Shown here: in pieces, positions 23,968 through 50,707 of the stretch
Position numbering within the stretch: position 1 is the stretch's first letter
Layout of the letters: every line of letters starts with the position of its first letter
Assembly: GCA_017462485.1 (NCBI GenBank)
Contig: JAFTRA010000034.1
Location: 1 to 51,457 of the forward strand
Reading direction: 5' to 3'
DNA from: Clostridia bacterium
GTDB lineage: Bacteria > Bacillota > Clostridia > Oscillospirales > CAG-272
DNA length: 51,457 nt
The notes under the pieces: model-generated
What the model saw: only the letters and a program-made list of their open reading frames with translations
What the model was told of the DNA's origin: nothing
The model's database searches: none
Made by a program: the position numbers and the translations under genes

Positions 23968-24122
23968 ATTTCCCTTTCAAAAACAAGAGATACGACAAGA
24001 AAGCCGAGTTTTTTATTCAATACGGCATTTCTCATTCTCTTGCCAAGGCGGTGCTGCCGCCTTTTCATCATTTTAATACTTATATACTCTCAGTTTATGT
24101 TTGACGGAGTTTTTTGTTACGT

Positions 24123-24878
24123 ATGAATGAACTTAAAAGACTGCTCAGCTTCGTAAGACGGGGCGTTGACGATTACGCTATGATAGAAGAGGGCGACGTT
24201 ATTGCCGTAGGTATTTCGGGCGGTAAGGACTCTCTTGCGCTCTTAAAGGCGCTTGCCGAAATGCGCCGCTTTTATCCAAAAAAATACGAAGTAAAGGCAA
24301 TTACAATAGATATGGGCTTTGAGGGCTCTGACTATTCGGGAATAAAGGAATATTGCGAGGCTCTTAACGTTGAATACAGAGTGGTTGACACGGAGATAGC
24401 CAAAATCATATTCGACGTCAGACAGGAGTCAAATCCCTGCTCTCTTTGCGCAAAGATGCGACGCGGCTCGCTTCACCTTGCGGCGCAGGAAATGGGCTGC
24501 AACAAGGTTGCGCTCGGGCATCATTTTGACGACGTAGTTGAAACCTTTATGATGAATCTTTTCTTCGAGGGCAGGCTTGGATGCTTCTCCCCCGTTACCT
24601 ACCTTTCAAACAGAAAAATCACGCTTATACGCCCTATGATATACGCTACCGAAAAGGACGTGGTATATTTCGCAAGGCGGCAGAATCTTCCTATTGTTAA
24701 AAGCCTTTGCCCCGAGGACCACAACACAGAGCGCGAGAATATGAAAAATCTCCTTTCCGAGATTGAAAAAAACAACAAGGGCCTCAAGCACAGAATTTTC
24801 AAGGCAATCTGCAAGGGCAACCTTGACGGCTTTGCCGAAAAGGGCAGATATCCCGACGCGGGAGCTTTACCTGAATAA
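24123..24878 (+). CDS. TtcA-like tRNA 2-thiolation enzyme (PP-loop ATPase)
   Basis: 251 residues. The PP-loop motif SGGKDS (32-37) activates a tRNA base with ATP. A CSLC pair (Cys106, Cys109) and a third cysteine near residue 200 (SLCPEDHNTERENM) match the sulfur-transfer or iron-sulfur site of TtcA-type enzymes that make 2-thiocytidine-32. Two starts are possible: ATG 24123, used here because homologous proteins begin near this point, and TTG 24114, four bases after GGAG. Divergent from the amidase. A GC-rich hairpin (AAGGCGG/CCGCCTT, about 24044-24063) precedes it. Confidence 0.82.
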   Translation: MNELKRLLSFVRRGVDDYAMIEEGDVIAVGISGGKDSLALLKALAEMRRFYPKKYEVKAITIDMGFEGSDYSGIKEYCEALNVEYRVVDTEIAKIIFDVRQESNPCSLCAKMRRGSLHLAAQEMGCNKVALGHHFDDVVETFMMNLFFEGRLGCFSPVTYLSNRKITLIRPMIYATEKDVVYFARRQNLPIVKSLCPEDHNTERENMKNLLSEIEKNNKGLKHRIFKAICKGNLDGFAEKGRYPDAGALPE

Positions 24879-24931
24879 ATTTATTTTTTCAAGGCAACAA
24901 AAGCGCTTTGTGTTTTTTAGCTTAATATAAG

Positions 24932-24972
24932 AAGGAATGAAAATTGCGATAGTGCGCTTTTCATTCCTTTTT
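24932..24972 (+). terminator. Intrinsic terminator of the TtcA-like gene
   Basis: A 12-bp stem AAGGAATGAAAA (24932-24943) with TTTTCATTCCTT (24958-24969), followed by T residues. Confidence 0.85.
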
Positions 24973-25023
24973 TGCGTATTTATTAATTTTTAAATAAATA
25001 ACAAATAATCATTTCGCTTTCTG

Positions 25024-25052
25024 TTGACAAAGATTTCGACATATGGTATAAT
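25024..25052 (+). promoter_or_regulatory. Strong sigma-A promoter of the structured small unit
   Basis: TTGACA (25024-25029), 17 nt, TATAAT (25047-25052), a consensus match. The start of transcription is expected near 25058-25060, exactly where the outer stem of the RNA structure begins (25057). Confidence 0.85.
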
Positions 25053-25056
25053 TTAC

Positions 25057-25162
25057 CTGCGACACAATCAAATATTCTTGAAAAGGGTGTACTATGCCAT
25101 TTTTAGTACTTCCGTTCTTTTTCTATACCTTTTTCAAGAAGTTAGATAAGATTGTGTCGCAG
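25057..25162 (+). other. Long hairpin that encloses a ribosome site
   Basis: Two stems nested in one hairpin. The outer stem is 13 bp and perfect: CTGCGACACAATC (25057-25069) with GATTGTGTCGCAG (25150-25162). The inner stem is 17 bp with two G-T pairs: TTCTTGAAAAGGGTGTA (25075-25091) with TATACCTTTTTCAAGAA (25124-25140). The inner stem contains the whole ribosome site AAAAGGG, and the start codon of the 28-codon frame lies in the 32-nt apical loop. The 5' end of the transcript therefore pairs with the coding part. Confidence 0.8.
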
Positions 25163-25180
25163 CAAAGTGAAGTGCTTTGA
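25094..25180 (+). CDS. Small hydrophobic peptide, 28 residues (possible type I toxin or leader peptide)
   Basis: ATG at 25094, six bases after AAAAGGG, ending in TGA at 25180. The product starts MPFLVLPFFFYTFFKKLDKI and ends with a polar tail. It has one very hydrophobic segment (residues 2-14, long enough for most of a membrane helix), two lysines at the membrane edge and a charged end. This composition is common in membrane-acting type I toxins and in some leader peptides. I recognise no family. The ribosome site is buried in the hairpin at 25057-25162. A terminator follows the stop codon by five bases. It might not be translated at all if the RNA itself is the product. Confidence 0.5.
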   Translation: MPFLVLPFFFYTFFKKLDKIVSQQSEVL

Positions 25181-25185
25181 TGGGG

Positions 25186-25217
25186 GCGCGTCGCTTTGCG
25201 ACGCGCTTTTTGCTTTT
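25186..25217 (+). terminator. Intrinsic terminator after the small peptide, before the BspA-like gene
   Basis: Perfect 9-bp GC-rich stem GCGCGTCGC (25186-25194) with GCGACGCGC (25198-25206), loop TTT, then TTTTTGCTTTT. It ends the short unit, or acts as an attenuator for the large gene that starts 33 bases later. A weak second promoter (TTGCGA 25196-25201, 17 nt, TATAAC 25219-25224) overlaps it and could serve the large gene. Confidence 0.85.
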
Positions 25218-25249
25218 ATATAACTAATAAGAAAAGGATGGAAACAGAG

Positions 25250-28200
25250 ATGAGAAAAAGACTTAAAAGCTTATTGCTTACGCTTCTTTTGGCGCTTGCC
25301 TGTTTATTTACGGCAACGTCGTGCGAAAACCTTGATATCGGAGCTTTGCTGGGCGGTGAAAGTGTCTCGCAAGGAATAACACTTGATAAAACCGAGCTTA
25401 CGTTGAAGGTCGGAGAGCTTTATCAGCTCAACGTCAGCGAGGTTTCTAGCGAAGAGGATTCTTCTAAAGATGCCGAGAAAGAATCTGGCAAAAAGCAGAA
25501 CGGTATGAAAAATCCCTTCAAGAAGGATGAAGCCGAGGACGTAGTCTATACCTGGGAGACGTCAAACGCTCTGGTTGCTACAGTTAAGGACGGTCTTGTT
25601 ACCGCAGTTGGCGAGGGCTTTGCCGTTGTAACCGTGCGCGCAGGCAAAGAAAGCTACGCTACCTGCACGGTAACCGTTATAGATGAGAGCAAGGTAAACG
25701 TTTCGGTTACCGAGGTCAAGCTCAACAAAACCGAGTTAACCCTCTGCATTGGTAAGAGTGAAACGCTTACGGTAGAAGTAGTTCCCGAAAACGCAACTAT
25801 AAAGGATATAACCTGGTATTCCTCGAATACCGACGTTGTTACCGTTGAAAACGGCGTTTTAACAGCGGTAGGCGGCGGAAAAGCCTCCGTTATGGCTTCA
25901 AGCGTAAACGGAAAATACGCAAAGTGCGAGGTTACGGTTAATTACAGTCACGTTCCGAACGAAGCCGTAAAGGAAAATGAAAAGGCTGCAAGCTGTACCG
26001 AGGACGGCTCTTACGACCTCGTATCATACTGTAAAACCTGCGGTGAGCTTGTAAATAAAGAAAGCGTTACGGTAACAGCTCCCGGTCATACTCCTCTCGA
26101 AGCGGTAAAAGAGAATGAAAAGGCTGCAAGCTGCACTGAGAAAGGCTCTTACGACCTCGTATCATATTGCGACGTATGCGGCGAGGAAATTTCAAGAGCT
26201 ACTGAAACCGTTCCAACGGTCGCCCACAATTACGTTGAAGGAAAGTGCGACTCTTGCGGTAAAGAGGAACTCAAAGCAAGCGAAGGTCTTTCATATACAT
26301 TAAGCAACTACAAAACGTATTATATCGTTTCGGGCATAGGAACCTGCACAGATACGGATATTGTTATTCCCGAAAAATATAATGGTTACCCTGTTACGAC
26401 GATTGGGGTGCAAGCGTTCTACGGGGCTAACATAACAAGCGTAACCATTCCCGATAGCGTTACTTCTATTGGTGATGATGCGTTCTCTTATTGCACAAGC
26501 CTTACAAGTATAACTATTCCAGATAGCGTAACTTCAATAGGTATTTGTGCATTCCGCGGCTGCACGGGACTTACTCAAGTAATAGTCGGAAGCAATGTTA
26601 CCGAAATTGACGATGTAGCTTTTCATAATTGCACTGCTCTCAGAAGCGTATATTATATGGGAAGTGCGGAGAATTGGAAAAACGTTTCAGCCGAAAGCGC
26701 AGGGGCTTATTTCACAAACTCCTTGCATTACTATTACAGCGAGAGCGAGCCTACCGTAAAGGGATATTTCTGGCGTTATGATGAAAACGGAAACGTTGCA
26801 GTTTGGGAAAACGCTCTCCCTGAGATTTCTGTAGGAAGCGAAGGTCTTGAATATACGCTGGATGAGTATGGCGCATATTATGTGCTTACAGGTATCGGCA
26901 CGTGTACCGATACGGATATCGTTATCGCTGACAGATACGACGGATTGCCCGTTAAAGAGATTCAATGGGGCGCGTTCATGGATTGCACCGATATTGTAAG
27001 CGTAAAAATCGGAAATAACGTTACCAGCATTGGCTCCTCTGCCTTCGAAAATTGCTCCAGCCTCAAAAGCGTTATTATTCCCGATAGCGTTACATACATT
27101 GAGCTCTACGCCTTTTCGGGATTAGACGTCGTATATTACCGAGGAACTCCGGCAGATTGGAATAATATACGCGACCTAGTTGACGTTCCCGATGGCCATA
27201 TCAGCGATTTGGATACTATAATATCTTGTTACTTCTATAGCGAAAATCAACCCGTTGAGATTGGTAACTTCTGGCATTATGATGAAAACGGCGAGATTGC
27301 TATATGGGATATAGCAGAAGCTTCCGATGTTGAGAATGGAAGCAAGGGACTTTCTTATGCGTTGAGTGAGGACGGCACGTACTACATAGTTTTCGGTATT
27401 GGAGTCTGCACAGATACAAACGTTGTAATTCCCAATATTTATAAGGGATTGCCCGTTAAACAAATCGGATACTATGCCTTTAATAAAGCAAGTGAAATCA
27501 AGAGCGTTACTCTTCCGGAAGGTATTACGATAATTGAAGGAGATGCATTCTTTGGTTGCACAGCTCTTACCAATATAAATATCCCTGCCAGCGTTACTTA
27601 TATCAGCAGTAGTGCGTTTAACGGTTGCAATTCTCTTACAAGTATAACCGTATCCGCAGACAATGAAAACTACAAGGATATAGACGGAAACCTCTATACG
27701 AAAGACGGCAAAACTCTTCTAAGGTATGCAACCGGTAAAGAGGATACCCATTTTGCTATTCCCGACGGTGTTACAACTATTTATCCCTATGCTTTCTACA
27801 ACCACTCGCTTACAAGCATAGTTATTCCTACCAGTCTTGTCAATATTTATATGGAGGGATTCTGCTATAGCTACGGAGATGATGGCATAGTATATTACTC
27901 CGGTACAGAAGAGAAATGGAATAATATCGAGATAGACTCTTATGAAAACTATTGGGTAGAAGAAGCAACGATATATTTCTACAGCGAAACCGAGCCTACC
28001 GAAGAGGATAACTTCTGGCACTACGACGAAAACGGTGAGGTTGCAATTTGGGGAGTTTTAGAGACTCCCGAGGATGAAAATGCAAGCAAAGGTCTTGAAT
28101 ATACCTTAAGCGATGACGGAACGTATTATATAGTTTCCGGAATCGGAACTTGCACTGATACGGATGTTGTTATTCCCGAAGAGTACGAGGGACTGCCTGT

Positions 28201-29848
28201 TAAAGAAATTGGTAACTATGCGTTCTACTATTGCACGAGCCTTACGAGTGTAACAATCCCCGATAGCGTTACTTCTATTGGTGACGGTGCGTTCGAGAGT
28301 TGCACAAGCCTTACAAGCGTAATAATTGGAAATAGCGTTACATCTATTGGTAACTATGCGTTCGCATATTGCAGAAGCCTTACGAGCGTAACAATCCCAG
28401 ATAGCGTTACTTCCATTGGTGATGATGCGTTCTACTATTGCACGAGCCTTACGAGTGTAACAATCCCCGATAGCGTTACTTCTATTGGTGACGGTGCGTT
28501 CGATAGTTGCACGAGCCTTACAAGCGTAATAATTGGAAATAGCGTTACTTATATTGGTTCTTCTGCGTTCTCCCGTTGCACGAGCCTTGCAAGCATAATA
28601 ATCCCAAATAGCGTTACTTATATTGGTTCTTCTGCGTTCTCCCGTTGCACGAGCCTTACAAGCATAATAATTTCCGATAGCGTTACTTCCATTGGTGATA
28701 ATGCGTTCTTCCATTGCTACAAACTTGTGGAAATATATAATCTTTCGAGTTTGACCATAACGGCAGGTTCTTCTGATTACGGATACGTAGGATACTATGC
28801 TCTTAACGTATATACGAATACCGAAGAACAAAAGAAAACATTTGAAACAGAGGACGGTTACATATTCTATGAAGATGGCGATGTTCGTTATCTTTTAGGA
28901 TATAAGGGCGATAAAGTCGAATTAACTTTTCCTAAAGACTGTAACGGTAAGAATTATGCGATTTATGAGTATGCTTTCTATGAAAACAATAAAATTACAA
29001 AGGTAATCATTCCAAATAGCGTTACTTCTATTGGTAACTATGCGTTCTACGATTGCTCGAGCCTTACAAGCATAACAATTGGAAACAGCGTTACAGATAT
29101 TGGTCATTCTGCGTTCTGTCGTTGCTACAAACTTGTGGAAATATATAATCTTTCGAGTTTGACCATAACGGCAGGTTCTTCTAATTACGGATACGTAGGA
29201 TGCTATGCTCTTAACGTATATACGAATACCGAAGGACAAAAGAAAACATTTGAAACAGAGGACGGTTACATATTCTATGAAGATGGCGATGTTCGTTATC
29301 TTTTAAGATATAAGGGCGATAAAGTCGAATTAACTCTTCCTAAAGACTGTAACGGTAAGAATTATGCGATTTATAAGTATGCTTTCTATGAAAACAACAA
29401 AATTATAAAGGTAATCATTCCGAATAGCGTTACTTCTATTGGTGGTTCTGCGTTCGAAGATTGCACGAGCCTTACAAGTGTAACGCTTGGTAATAGCGTT
29501 ACTTCTATTGGTGACGGTGCGTTCGCATATTGCACGAGCCTTACAAGCATAATAATCCCCGATAGCGTTACTTCTATTGGTAACTCTGCGTTCGAGAGTT
29601 GCACGAGCCTTACAAGCATAATAATCCCCGATAGCGTTACTTCTATTGGTAACTCTGCGTTCGAGAGTTGCACGAGCCTTACAAGCGTATATTACAACGG
29701 TACGGCAGAAGCGTGGAATAATATTGAAATAGGATATAACAATTATTATTTATCTTACGCTACTCGTTATTATTACAGCGAAAGTGAGCCCACTGAAGAG
29801 GGTAACTTCTGGCACTACGACGAAAACGGCGAGGTTGCCGTTTGGTAA
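25250..29848 (+). CDS. Large modular BspA-like leucine-rich-repeat surface lipoprotein
   Basis: 1532 residues, exported. The signal peptide ends at a lipobox Cys (TATSC, about 26). Two bacterial Ig-like (Big_2) domains follow (about 42-145 and 150-235), the first with a charged insertion of about 30 residues. Two Cys-containing repeats (AVKENEKAASCTE..GSYDLVSYC..CG) come next. Then four modules of the form GLxYTL...GIGTCTDTxIVIP..Y.GLPV...I, leucine-rich repeats, FWHYDENGE.A.W begin near 26280, 26830, 27335 and 28080. The start at 25250 follows AAGGATGG; an ATG at 25238 is part of that site. No sorting signal or C-terminal anchor. Likely an adhesin, by family. Internal duplications make it a recombination hotspot. 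Confidence 0.87.
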   Translation: MRKRLKSLLLTLLLALACLFTATSCENLDIGALLGGESVSQGITLDKTELTLKVGELYQLNVSEVSSEEDSSKDAEKESGKKQNGMKNPFKKDEAEDVVYTWETSNALVATVKDGLVTAVGEGFAVVTVRAGKESYATCTVTVIDESKVNVSVTEVKLNKTELTLCIGKSETLTVEVVPENATIKDITWYSSNTDVVTVENGVLTAVGGGKASVMASSVNGKYAKCEVTVNYSHVPNEAVKENEKAASCTEDGSYDLVSYCKTCGELVNKESVTVTAPGHTPLEAVKENEKAASCTEKGSYDLVSYCDVCGEEISRATETVPTVAHNYVEGKCDSCGKEELKASEGLSYTLSNYKTYYIVSGIGTCTDTDIVIPEKYNGYPVTTIGVQAFYGANITSVTIPDSVTSIGDDAFSYCTSLTSITIPDSVTSIGICAFRGCTGLTQVIVGSNVTEIDDVAFHNCTALRSVYYMGSAENWKNVSAESAGAYFTNSLHYYYSESEPTVKGYFWRYDENGNVAVWENALPEISVGSEGLEYTLDEYGAYYVLTGIGTCTDTDIVIADRYDGLPVKEIQWGAFMDCTDIVSVKIGNNVTSIGSSAFENCSSLKSVIIPDSVTYIELYAFSGLDVVYYRGTPADWNNIRDLVDVPDGHISDLDTIISCYFYSENQPVEIGNFWHYDENGEIAIWDIAEASDVENGSKGLSYALSEDGTYYIVFGIGVCTDTNVVIPNIYKGLPVKQIGYYAFNKASEIKSVTLPEGITIIEGDAFFGCTALTNINIPASVTYISSSAFNGCNSLTSITVSADNENYKDIDGNLYTKDGKTLLRYATGKEDTHFAIPDGVTTIYPYAFYNHSLTSIVIPTSLVNIYMEGFCYSYGDDGIVYYSGTEEKWNNIEIDSYENYWVEEATIYFYSETEPTEEDNFWHYDENGEVAIWGVLETPEDENASKGLEYTLSDDGTYYIVSGIGTCTDTDVVIPEEYEGLPVKEIGNYAFYYCTSLTSVTIPDSVTSIGDGAFESCTSLTSVIIGNSVTSIGNYAFAYCRSLTSVTIPDSVTSIGDDAFYYCTSLTSVTIPDSVTSIGDGAFDSCTSLTSVIIGNSVTYIGSSAFSRCTSLASIIIPNSVTYIGSSAFSRCTSLTSIIISDSVTSIGDNAFFHCYKLVEIYNLSSLTITAGSSDYGYVGYYALNVYTNTEEQKKTFETEDGYIFYEDGDVRYLLGYKGDKVELTFPKDCNGKNYAIYEYAFYENNKITKVIIPNSVTSIGNYAFYDCSSLTSITIGNSVTDIGHSAFCRCYKLVEIYNLSSLTITAGSSNYGYVGCYALNVYTNTEGQKKTFETEDGYIFYEDGDVRYLLRYKGDKVELTLPKDCNGKNYAIYKYAFYENNKIIKVIIPNSVTSIGGSAFEDCTSLTSVTLGNSVTSIGDGAFAYCTSLTSIIIPDSVTSIGNSAFESCTSLTSIIIPDSVTSIGNSAFESCTSLTSVYYNGTAEAWNNIEIGYNNYYLSYATRYYYSESEPTEEGNFWHYDENGEVAVW
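28714..29448 (+). repeat. Internal direct duplication in the BspA-like gene
   Basis: A segment of about 330 bases starting at 28714 (TTGCTACAAACTTGTGGA) is repeated almost unchanged at 29122, an offset of 408 bases or 136 codons. Both copies encode CYKLVEIYNLSSLTITAGSS and the YIFYEDGDVRYLL stretch. Shorter 69-base leucine-rich-repeat units are repeated many times on both sides, and the last two units (from about 29567) are almost identical. Confidence 0.85.
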
Positions 29849-30010: not shown

Positions 30011-30075
30011 AATAGTGAATATTTAAGATTTGTTCTTCAAAACTATCTAATTTGCAAAAATGGAGGTGTATTCAA

Positions 30076-30708
30076 ATGTTAATAAGCAGGTTGGAAAAAC
30101 GTTTTGGATACAATAAACCGATATTTACAGAAGATATTTTTGACTGCATGAAGGACTATTCTCGTCAAAGAATATATCAGTTTATTGCCGAGGCTATCAA
30201 AAAGGAAACGCTTGTACGTTATGATACCGGCGTATATTATTTACCTACGGAAACAGAGTTTGGACGTTCTGTATTAACGGTTAATGAGGTCGTAAATAGA
30301 AAATATATCAGCGATAACGGAGAAATATTCGGTATTTACGGAAAATATGTCATTGAGTTAAACTTCTTGTTGAGTTATCAAGTTCCTAATACAATTGAGG
30401 TTATTACAAACAAAGAGTCGAGAGACGTACGGGAAATAGAGATCAGAGGACGCAAGGTTATTTTACGCAAATCACGTTTGCCGATTACAAAAGAAAACGA
30501 AAGCGCCTATACTCTTATGGAGTTGTTTAACGGTATTGATATCAGACAATACCGAGAGGATTCAATGGTAAGAGAAAGCATAAGCGATTATATAAAGGAA
30601 AAGAAAATCAACAGCGAAGCAATTTATAGTTTGGCAAGTTCTTTTCCTGCAAGAACAATGAAAAATTTAGCAACAAGTGGAGTATTATATGAAATTGCAC
30701 AACAATAA
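30076..30708 (+). CDS. AbiEi-type antitoxin / transcriptional regulator (DUF6088-like)
   Basis: 210 residues, cytoplasmic. The N-terminal winged-helix region (residues 1-60, PIFTEDIFDCMKDYSRQRIYQFI) is followed by a stretch resembling the AbiEi C-terminal domain (GIYGKYVIELNFLLSYQVPN, then VREIEIRGRKVILRKSR). In AbiE systems this partner binds inverted repeats in its own promoter and neutralises the toxin without a stable complex (type IV). ATG at 30076 after GGAGGTG with seven-base spacing. The stop lies 20 bases inside the toxin gene. Identification rests mainly on fold outline and on the toxin next to it. Confidence 0.8.
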   Translation: MLISRLEKRFGYNKPIFTEDIFDCMKDYSRQRIYQFIAEAIKKETLVRYDTGVYYLPTETEFGRSVLTVNEVVNRKYISDNGEIFGIYGKYVIELNFLLSYQVPNTIEVITNKESRDVREIEIRGRKVILRKSRLPITKENESAYTLMELFNGIDIRQYREDSMVRESISDYIKEKKINSEAIYSLASSFPARTMKNLATSGVLYEIAQQ

Positions 30709-31597
30709 AGACGCCTTTGAAAGATTGATTAGATTGGTGAGTGACTATTACAAAATCGATCCTGCTCTTGTAGAAAAGGATTATTTTGTAACCTTGCTTT
30801 TAAAGGAACTTGCCGCAAGAGTTCCTAGTCTTTTATTTAAAGGCGGTACGTCACTTTCAAAATGCCATAAAATAATAGATAGATTTTCAGAAGATATTGA
30901 CCTAACACTTGACGAAAATCATCAGACACAGGGACAGAAAAAGCAGATGAAAGCCGAGCTTGTGGAGGCTTGCGAAACGCTCGGTTTGCATTTGACTAAC
31001 TTTGAAGAAATAAGGAGCAGACGAGACTATAACTGCTATAAAATTGAATATCCGATTCAACACCTGTCAGTAAGTATAAAACCTTTGTTATTAGTTGAAA
31101 CAACATATATAACGAAAGCATATCCGAGCGAGTTACGACCGGCAACATCAATAATTTACGATTATTTGAAAGAAATGGGAAACGACACAGCTATTGAAAA
31201 ATACGAATTGCAGCCGTTTGAGATTCGGGTACAAACGCTTGACAGAACCTTGGTTGATAAGGTATTTGCCGTTTGCGATTATCTTGTTGGAGAACGAATT
31301 GAAAGAAATTCAAGACATATTTACGACCTTGCGCGTTTGCTTACAAGAGTAAATCTTGACGAAAAATTAAAGGAGTTAGTTAAAGACGTCCGCGCTGACA
31401 GAAAACCGCACGCGCTCTGCTACTCTGCGCAAGACGATGCAAACGTTCCTGGAATGCTTGCGGAAATTGTCAAATCCGGCATTTACAAAGAAGATTATGA
31501 GACGATAACAAGAATTATGATGTTCAAATATCTGCCTTACGAAGAAGCTATAAAAGCATTGGAAACAATTATCGCAAGCGGTGTATTTGAGAAATAA
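30689..31597 (+). CDS. AbiEii-type nucleotidyltransferase toxin
   Basis: 302 residues of the AbiEii/COG2253 family, nucleotidyltransferases that arrest growth (related MenT/AbiEii enzymes add nucleotides to tRNA 3' ends or use GTP). Motif I is KGGTSLSKCHKII (51-63), and the metal-binding aspartates are in SEDIDLTLDE (Asp69, Asp71). Later family features are VEKDYFVTLLLKEL near the start and RHIYDLARLL near residue 210. The start at 30689 has GTGGAG six bases upstream and lies inside the antitoxin gene, giving coupled translation. Such pairs act in phage abortive infection and plasmid maintenance. Confidence 0.88.
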   Translation: MKLHNNKDAFERLIRLVSDYYKIDPALVEKDYFVTLLLKELAARVPSLLFKGGTSLSKCHKIIDRFSEDIDLTLDENHQTQGQKKQMKAELVEACETLGLHLTNFEEIRSRRDYNCYKIEYPIQHLSVSIKPLLLVETTYITKAYPSELRPATSIIYDYLKEMGNDTAIEKYELQPFEIRVQTLDRTLVDKVFAVCDYLVGERIERNSRHIYDLARLLTRVNLDEKLKELVKDVRADRKPHALCYSAQDDANVPGMLAEIVKSGIYKEDYETITRIMMFKYLPYEEAIKALETIIASGVFEK

Positions 31598-50631: not shown

Positions 50632-50707
50632 CGGGATGTAACGCAGTTGGTAGCGCGCTTGCTTTGGGAGCAAGATGTCGCAGGTTCAAATCCTGTCATT
50701 CCGACCA
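50632..50707 (+). tRNA. tRNA-Pro (anticodon TGG), CCA encoded
   Basis: 76 nt. The acceptor stem is CGGGATG with CATTCCG (one G-T), followed by A and an encoded CCA. The anticodon stem is CTTGC/GCAAG with loop TTTGGGA, so the anticodon is TGG (proline). The T arm GCAGG/CCTGT carries the loop TTCAAAT. The D arm contains AGTTGGTAGC. All parts of the cloverleaf are present. Confidence 0.95.

Follow-up and report, generated by a model that had tools for sequence, protein, structure and literature searches.

The preQ1-I riboswitch is a compact, pseudoknotted 5'-leader RNA, and the 3' strand of its pseudoknot is common to the decision between terminator and antiterminator. Type I toxin mRNAs such as hok and aapA are characterised by long pairing of the 5' end with the coding region and by a short hydrophobic frame. 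Functionally diverse downstream genes are unusual for a metabolite riboswitch. Leader terminators, in some cases within similar elements located before unrelated genes, are described by Naville and Gautheret (2010; PMC2965389). PMC12373285 presents RCd22, an AbiF-associated RNA, as the antitoxin of an Abi_2/AbiF protein in one Clostridia species.

The element analysed here lies at 25024-25217 of a 51,457-nucleotide stretch of DNA from a Clostridia bacterium (the window). Like preQ1-I, it is a compact 5'-leader RNA with a pseudoknot whose 3' strand also takes part in the choice between terminator and antiterminator, but it differs in its larger core of two helices (P1-P2), its many unrelated targets, a promoter repeated along with the RNA, and the lack of an Rfam match or a known ligand. 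The long 5'-to-coding pairing and short hydrophobic frame of hok and aapA recur in the window element, although here the frame is not conserved, the linker pairs with the terminator and a long gene follows. With the attenuators of Naville and Gautheret (2010) it shares a leader terminator and the occurrence of similar elements before unrelated genes, whereas a covarying pseudoknot core coupled to an antiterminator and the divergence of copies within a genome set it apart from them. RCd22 is likewise a structured RNA, found in one Clostridia species and linked to an adjacent gene; an RNA antitoxin of the AbiF type was nevertheless rejected here, Abi_2 being absent among the 25 commonest Pfam families listed, of 51, for 101 downstream proteins. 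As judged from sequence and modelled folds, it is likely that the unit consists of the promoter and 5' leader of a leucine-rich-repeat (LRR) lipoprotein gene and acts as a riboswitch-type transcription attenuator.

Organisation and fold of the element

An earlier note, made from the sequence alone, had described this unit as a consensus promoter, a buried ribosome site, a 28-residue hydrophobic peptide and a terminator. The promoter is as described, with TTGACA, a 17-nt spacer, TATAAT and an upstream TG (12/12 matches), and the unit is strongly folded, 25024-25217 reaching -68.5 kcal/mol against -42.4 +/- 3.7 for its shuffles (z -7.0; equally good shuffles, 0/200). The 5' stem does begin at the presumed +1 but comprises 12 pairs (25058-25069 with 25150-25161) instead of the proposed 13, while the nested stem, given as 17 bp, has 14 pairs and is topped by an apical stem of 6 bp; in the fold, the ATG (25094-25096) sits at the loop edge, and the terminator also holds. 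Two features had gone unmentioned, namely that the linker pairs with the terminator 5' arm and that, 38 nt past the modelled element end, a gene begins that encodes an LRR protein of 1532 aa with a lipoprotein-like character. Counted from the presumed +1 (25058) to the terminator U tract, the element occupies 25058-25211. Its features, with the evidence for each, are as follows.

25024-25052, + strand: sigma-70 type promoter (-35 TTGACA at 25024-25029, -10 TATAAT at 25047-25052, TG before the -10)
25058-25069, + strand: P1 5' strand, at the presumed +1 (fold and type-B covariation)
25070-25074, + strand: J1/2, with a conserved unpaired AAUA motif (motif count across the family)
25075-25088, + strand: P2 5' strand (fold; sequence and length differ among copies)
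25089-25094, + strand: P3 5' strand, GUACUA (fold)
25094-25180, + strand: 28-codon frame, judged not to be a gene (broken in relatives)
25104-25109, + strand: P3 3' strand, UAGUAC (fold; overlaps the pseudoknot strand)
25106-25112, + strand: PKa, pseudoknot 5' strand, GUACUUC (can pair with 25169-25175; type-B covariation)
25127-25140, + strand: P2 3' strand (fold)
25150-25161, + strand: P1 3' strand (fold and type-B covariation)
25162-25178, + strand: linker, antiterminator 5' strand (16 pairs with 25183-25199, minimum-energy fold)
25169-25175, + strand: PKb, pseudoknot 3' strand, GAAGUGC, inside the antiterminator strand (own versus swapped linkers)
25182-25210, + strand: intrinsic terminator hairpin, then a U-rich tail (13 pairs; minimum-energy once the 3' arm is out)
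25183-25199, + strand: antiterminator 3' strand, equal to the terminator 5' arm and loop (fold; type-B covariation)
25235-25241, + strand: ribosome site, AGGAUGG, of the downstream gene (sequence)
25250-29848, + strand: downstream gene and presumed target (1532 aa, lipoprotein-like, Big_2 and many BspA-type LRR_5 repeats)

The usual order across the family is a near-consensus promoter, P1 at the presumed +1, a variable P2, an apical P3, the linker and the terminator; some 20 nt further on come a ribosome site and the start codon. Among 128 family members, a -10 like hexamer (at least 4/6) occurs in 127 and a -35 like one in 117. A long stem stands at the place of P2 in most of nine singly folded elements, L033 being an exception, and P3 retains all six pairs in 25 of 30 type-A relatives and five of six in the remaining 5. 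Types B and C carry other apical sequences and keep P1, the pseudoknot, the linker and the terminator.

Upstream of the element, the window encodes a PP-loop ATPase (24114-24878, + strand; TtcA-like by eye), followed by an inverted repeat and T run at about 24931-24972, also seen by eye, which may end the ATPase transcript before the element promoter.

The 28-codon frame

The 28-residue peptide had been proposed as a small membrane-active toxin, with a structured regulatory RNA as the fallback, and conserved stems with a broken frame in relatives had been named as the sign of an RNA gene. A 28-codon frame does exist; in the type-A relatives the stems are conserved and the frame is broken and, by the earlier note's own yardstick, the element is therefore an RNA, in keeping with the fallback. 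Five of the 30 type-A copies lack an ATG at the frame start; of the 25 that carry it, 11 stop after MPF (codon 4), and the other 14 run for 11 to 38 codons with differing lengths and later residues. Some of these frames share beginnings (MPF..., MQICTS...) because the RNA is conserved there.

A type I toxin mRNA of the hok/aapA kind, encoding a membrane peptide of 28 residues, is thus scarcely credible: the long 5'-to-coding pairing and the hydrophobic frame of the window copy speak for it, but the close copies without an ATG or with a stop at codon 4 speak against it. A consensus scan of the opposite strand found no sigma-70-like site in 24500-25800, the region in which an antisense antitoxin would be expected. 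The pairing that had been taken for a toxin hallmark is accounted for by two helices of the RNA fold, P1 and P2. With regard to attenuation by a leader peptide (uORF), no conserved short ORF was found in type A, and the type-B frames are broken by spacing changes (alignment A4, by eye).

Covariation and mutually exclusive pairings

The linker after P1 can form two exclusive pairings, either with the strand adjacent to P3 (the pseudoknot) or with the terminator 5' arm and loop (the antiterminator). The resulting series of three exclusive helices, P3:PKa, PKa:PKb and PKb:terminator arm, has the layout of a transcription attenuator.

Covariation was assessed in type-B alignment A4, which holds 35 of 37 class-B sequences (L056 and L058, being type A-like, were omitted). 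P1 occurs as GCGACAC/GUGUCGC, GCCACAC/GUGUGGC, GUCACAC/GUGUGAC, GCUACAC/GUGUAGC and other variants; it is 99.7% paired, with both sides changed at 5/10 pairs, and the corresponding values for the pseudoknot are 93.6% and 7/13. Taken together, the two helices are paired in 96.3% of 804 cells and doubly changed at 12/23 pairs, levels reached by 0/500 shuffles on four of five measures and by 1/500 on the fifth, and sliding the partner strand by 1-3 columns lowers the pairing from 96% to 33-61%. The antiterminator is 87.6% paired with 8/11 pairs changed on both sides, shuffles being as high in 0, 0, 5, 0 and 0 of 500 on the five measures; a slide of +2 gave 19 doubly changed cells against 15 in place, at 55.7% paired.

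Linkers were also exchanged among elements. Antiterminators formed with their own linkers average -13.7 kcal/mol, against -10.2 with swapped and -6.7 with shuffled linkers (128 elements; 0/5000 permutations), and for the pseudoknot 0/5000 permutations reach the mean of the own linkers (88 elements). Only 8/88 elements have their own linker as the best or tied pseudoknot partner, because relatives share sequence. The swap signal is weaker when type A is taken by itself, at 6/5000 for each helix and 29/5000 for the pseudoknot in a separate test.

In a stepwise fold of the window copy, the antiterminator is the minimum for 3' ends at 25200-25206 (-60.0 kcal/mol; 16 pairs in the fold of 25058-25206) and the terminator wins at 25209, the next step tested (-62.2 kcal/mol). 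Truncated folds of 127/128 elements contain an antiterminator of at least 6 pairs, while the terminator appears in just 83/128 of the full-length folds, in which a pseudoknot cannot be represented. The J1/2 motif [AC]AUA is present near its place in 111/128 elements, against 30/128 after one shuffle each, and the conservation of this unpaired motif suggests something that is recognised. The case for an attenuator was judged on four features, namely a conserved, covarying core, conserved unpaired nucleotides within it, a mutually exclusive terminator and antiterminator, and a leader position before a coding gene; sequence, modelled folds and predicted gene positions provide all four.

The near equality of the two window states in energy (-60.0 versus -62.2), together with the surface-type LRR proteins downstream, would also suit an intrinsically bistable leader that works without a ligand, in which kinetic competition between antiterminator and terminator would leave surface proteins expressed in part or to a degree that differs from cell to cell. 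We regard this as unlikely, since the conserved P1, J1/2 motif and pseudoknot exceed what simple competition needs.

Distribution and copy number

A blastn search of 59 genomes, the window's own and its relatives, gave clear relatives within the genus. A covariance model from seven sequences (R1) has matches at E <= 0.1 in 46/69 same-genus and 76/295 same-order genomes, the best listed E-values passing 1e-4 in 43 of the 46 and 64 of the 76, respectively. A second model (R2), built from the 35 type-B elements, has matches at E <= 0.001 in 99/391 same-class genomes and in 1/299 genomes of a phylum sample, this one being the window's own. The window copy scores 76.6 bits with R2, and types A and B therefore form one family. 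These wide searches scored 7 to 45 candidates per genome, so that copies can be undercounted. Before counting, two reverse-strand echoes (of 90 matches), seven repeats of places already in the set (of 48) and L058, the P1 of which was not parsable (1 of 129), were dropped; L137, L138 and L139 fit the model with imperfect 5' ends.

Copies were counted at E <= 1e-4 with up to 150 candidates scored, in ten genomes selected for having matches: 9 in G000, 5 in G068, 7 in G111, 23 in G410, 30 in G625, 10 in G537, 11 in G708, 14 in G605, 28 in G591 and 15 in G420. The covariance model finds 9 copies in the window genome (the reverse echo of the window, 1 of 10, being omitted).

Five to 30 copies per chosen genome, located before unrelated genes, could also reflect a mobile attenuator or MITE-like repeat spread by transposition with incidental regulation; "mobile attenuators" are described in PMC2965389. 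Such an origin appears very improbable, for the helices covary, the distances to the start codons span a narrow range, and the own-genome copies are too diverged for blastn, which with the window copy as the sole query found neither a second full copy nor near-identical dispersed copies in that genome.

The exact type-A pattern was found in 15 stretches of named genomes, all metagenome-assembled and all labelled "Clostridia bacterium" or "Oscillospiraceae bacterium"; among the animals, their titles mention yak, roe deer, water deer and goat. Carriage as phage or plasmid cargo was considered and rejected: in IMG/VR the exact type-B pattern was not found, and that of type C occurs in 1 stretch. 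One type-B copy matches two unannotated faecal phage records, and no plasmid match was found for it.

At L098, L096, L132, L134, L135 and L136 the element is longer, about 205 nt; its ends are unchanged, and an additional hairpin lies inside it (around ACTATACCCTTTTTT). L098 carries three such variants in a row, the promoters and terminators of which are almost identical. Two or three elements, each having a promoter and a terminator, form tandem arrays at L097 (6952-7510), L098, L099, L100, L101, L114, L142, L155, L183, L186, L188 and L190.

Genes downstream of the elements

A same-strand gene with a ribosome site follows within 90 nt in 101/128 elements, against 14/128 on the divergent side. 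The gap from element to gene has a median of 23 nt (middle half 20-34) and is below 40 nt in 85/101; a second promoter would therefore hardly fit comfortably in most copies. The other 27/128 elements have no downstream gene by the rule used, some of them being inner copies of tandem arrays.

The elements without a downstream gene weigh against an attenuator, as do the functional diversity of the downstream genes and the tandem copies with their own promoters, which suit stand-alone small RNAs as well. A trans-acting RNA of about 150 nt, encoded before other genes by coincidence or through mild effects in cis, would be compatible with those arrays, with the promoter that almost every element carries and the terminator of the parsed ones, and with a pyrimidine-rich strand that resembles, by eye, an anti-ribosome-site seed. 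This explanation is nonetheless improbable, as it leaves the excess of close same-strand genes over the divergent side unexplained and would make a covarying antiterminator needless. A cis-acting attenuator remains the preferred reading.

Pfam searches of the 101 downstream proteins gave 32 with BspA-type LRR_5, 4 with Cu_amine_oxidN1, 3 with DUF6591 and 2 with MazE_antitoxin (AbrB-like) matches. A lipobox was found by pattern in 34/101, the NCBIfam LRR adhesin model is matched by 28/101, and 31/101 match two PHROGs of unknown function, as does the window LRR protein. A set of defence genes was rejected as the common target: among the PADLOC matches listed, many of them to HTH or RmrA models and one a strong PD-Lambda-1 protein match, no family occurs in more than 2/101 proteins.

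In the window genome, three copies precede lipoprotein-like proteins, the window LRR protein among them, and one precedes a protein with a membrane span and a coiled-coil look (all by eye). Five further copies of this genome (C27, C17, C26, C5 and C6; L096, L132, L135, L138 and L139) precede small Cys-rich paralogues with the family signature IDITGVELTPG...CLGNG...CCCDECDY, and no Pfam match was found in two members of this family (L096 and L159, one of them own-genome). Downstream of the LRR gene, the window carries a pair of genes (30052-31597, + strand) in which an ORF without a Pfam match is followed by an AbiEii nucleotidyltransferase toxin match (30677-31594); from sequence, the pair is likely a type IV toxin-antitoxin system.

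In the 30-copy genome (G625), 23 elements were read, one match of 24 being cut by the locus end, and 15 of them have a downstream frame by the rule. By eye, ten of these frames look secreted, several being LRR-like, and four are AbrB-like with a zinc ribbon; one frame of 50 codons, which extends into the following element, is probably not a real gene. Leaders before small AbrB-like zinc-ribbon proteins (by eye) are located at L189, L194, L196 and L198 of this genome, and these proteins could be regulators within the same regulon.

Comparison with described RNA families

At gathering score, Rfam 15 (4227 families) reports in the window only tRNA, away from the element (the tRNA gene lies at 50632-50704, + strand), and with the limit relaxed to E 10 the overlaps with the element are all weak and below threshold. 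No overlap with the element was found at E up to 1 in eight close relatives. Among three long-variant loci, one element is overlapped by a mir-558 match that scores 30.5 bits against a cut-off of 90, and among the 20 best type-B loci one is touched by SNORA68, with 27.8 bits against a cut-off of 43. No Rfam 15 family thus matches the scanned elements at its cut-off. Gut-1 RNA (RF01706), given as "human gut only" in PMC2864571, lies within about 1 kb of an element in L013, L033 and L146, the L033 match being below cut-off.

A description of the family was not found in the accessible portions of PMC11109978, PMC8040213, PMC2864571, PMC2965389 and PMC8632094; the 3161 candidates of PMC8040213 and the 224 motifs of the 2017 paper lie outside this comparison. 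The family is apparently an undescribed member of the cis-acting attenuators, probably of the riboswitches, with an unusual copy number.

Proposed switch and its significance

In the predicted fold, P1 closes the leader at its 5' end; in the attenuator model, a ligand or factor would stabilise the core formed by P1, P2 and the pseudoknot and thereby take the linker away. With the linker engaged in the pseudoknot, the terminator would form and transcription would stop (off). Without the ligand or factor, P3 would hold the partner strand, the antiterminator would form and transcription would read through into the gene (on). The order of the off and on states is deduced from the topology of the pseudoknot and antiterminator; that the signal turns the gene off is a guess, as is its nature, for which a small molecule would be the first choice and a protein the second.

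More tentatively, with somewhat less than even confidence, the family may be a new and abundant riboswitch class, a portable promoter-plus-switch cassette answering one global signal, which would coordinate surface LRR proteins, AbrB-type regulators and other accessory genes at up to about 30 copies per genome in Clostridia with uncultured named members. If the attenuator reading is right, a substantial group of genes for surface and accessory proteins would be under the control of one undescribed RNA class in many Clostridia, among them gut bacteria for which metagenomes are the sole source. The family would then represent an orphan attenuator with unusually many copies and a clear switch architecture, and its signal could therefore be sought directly, with no need to culture the host.
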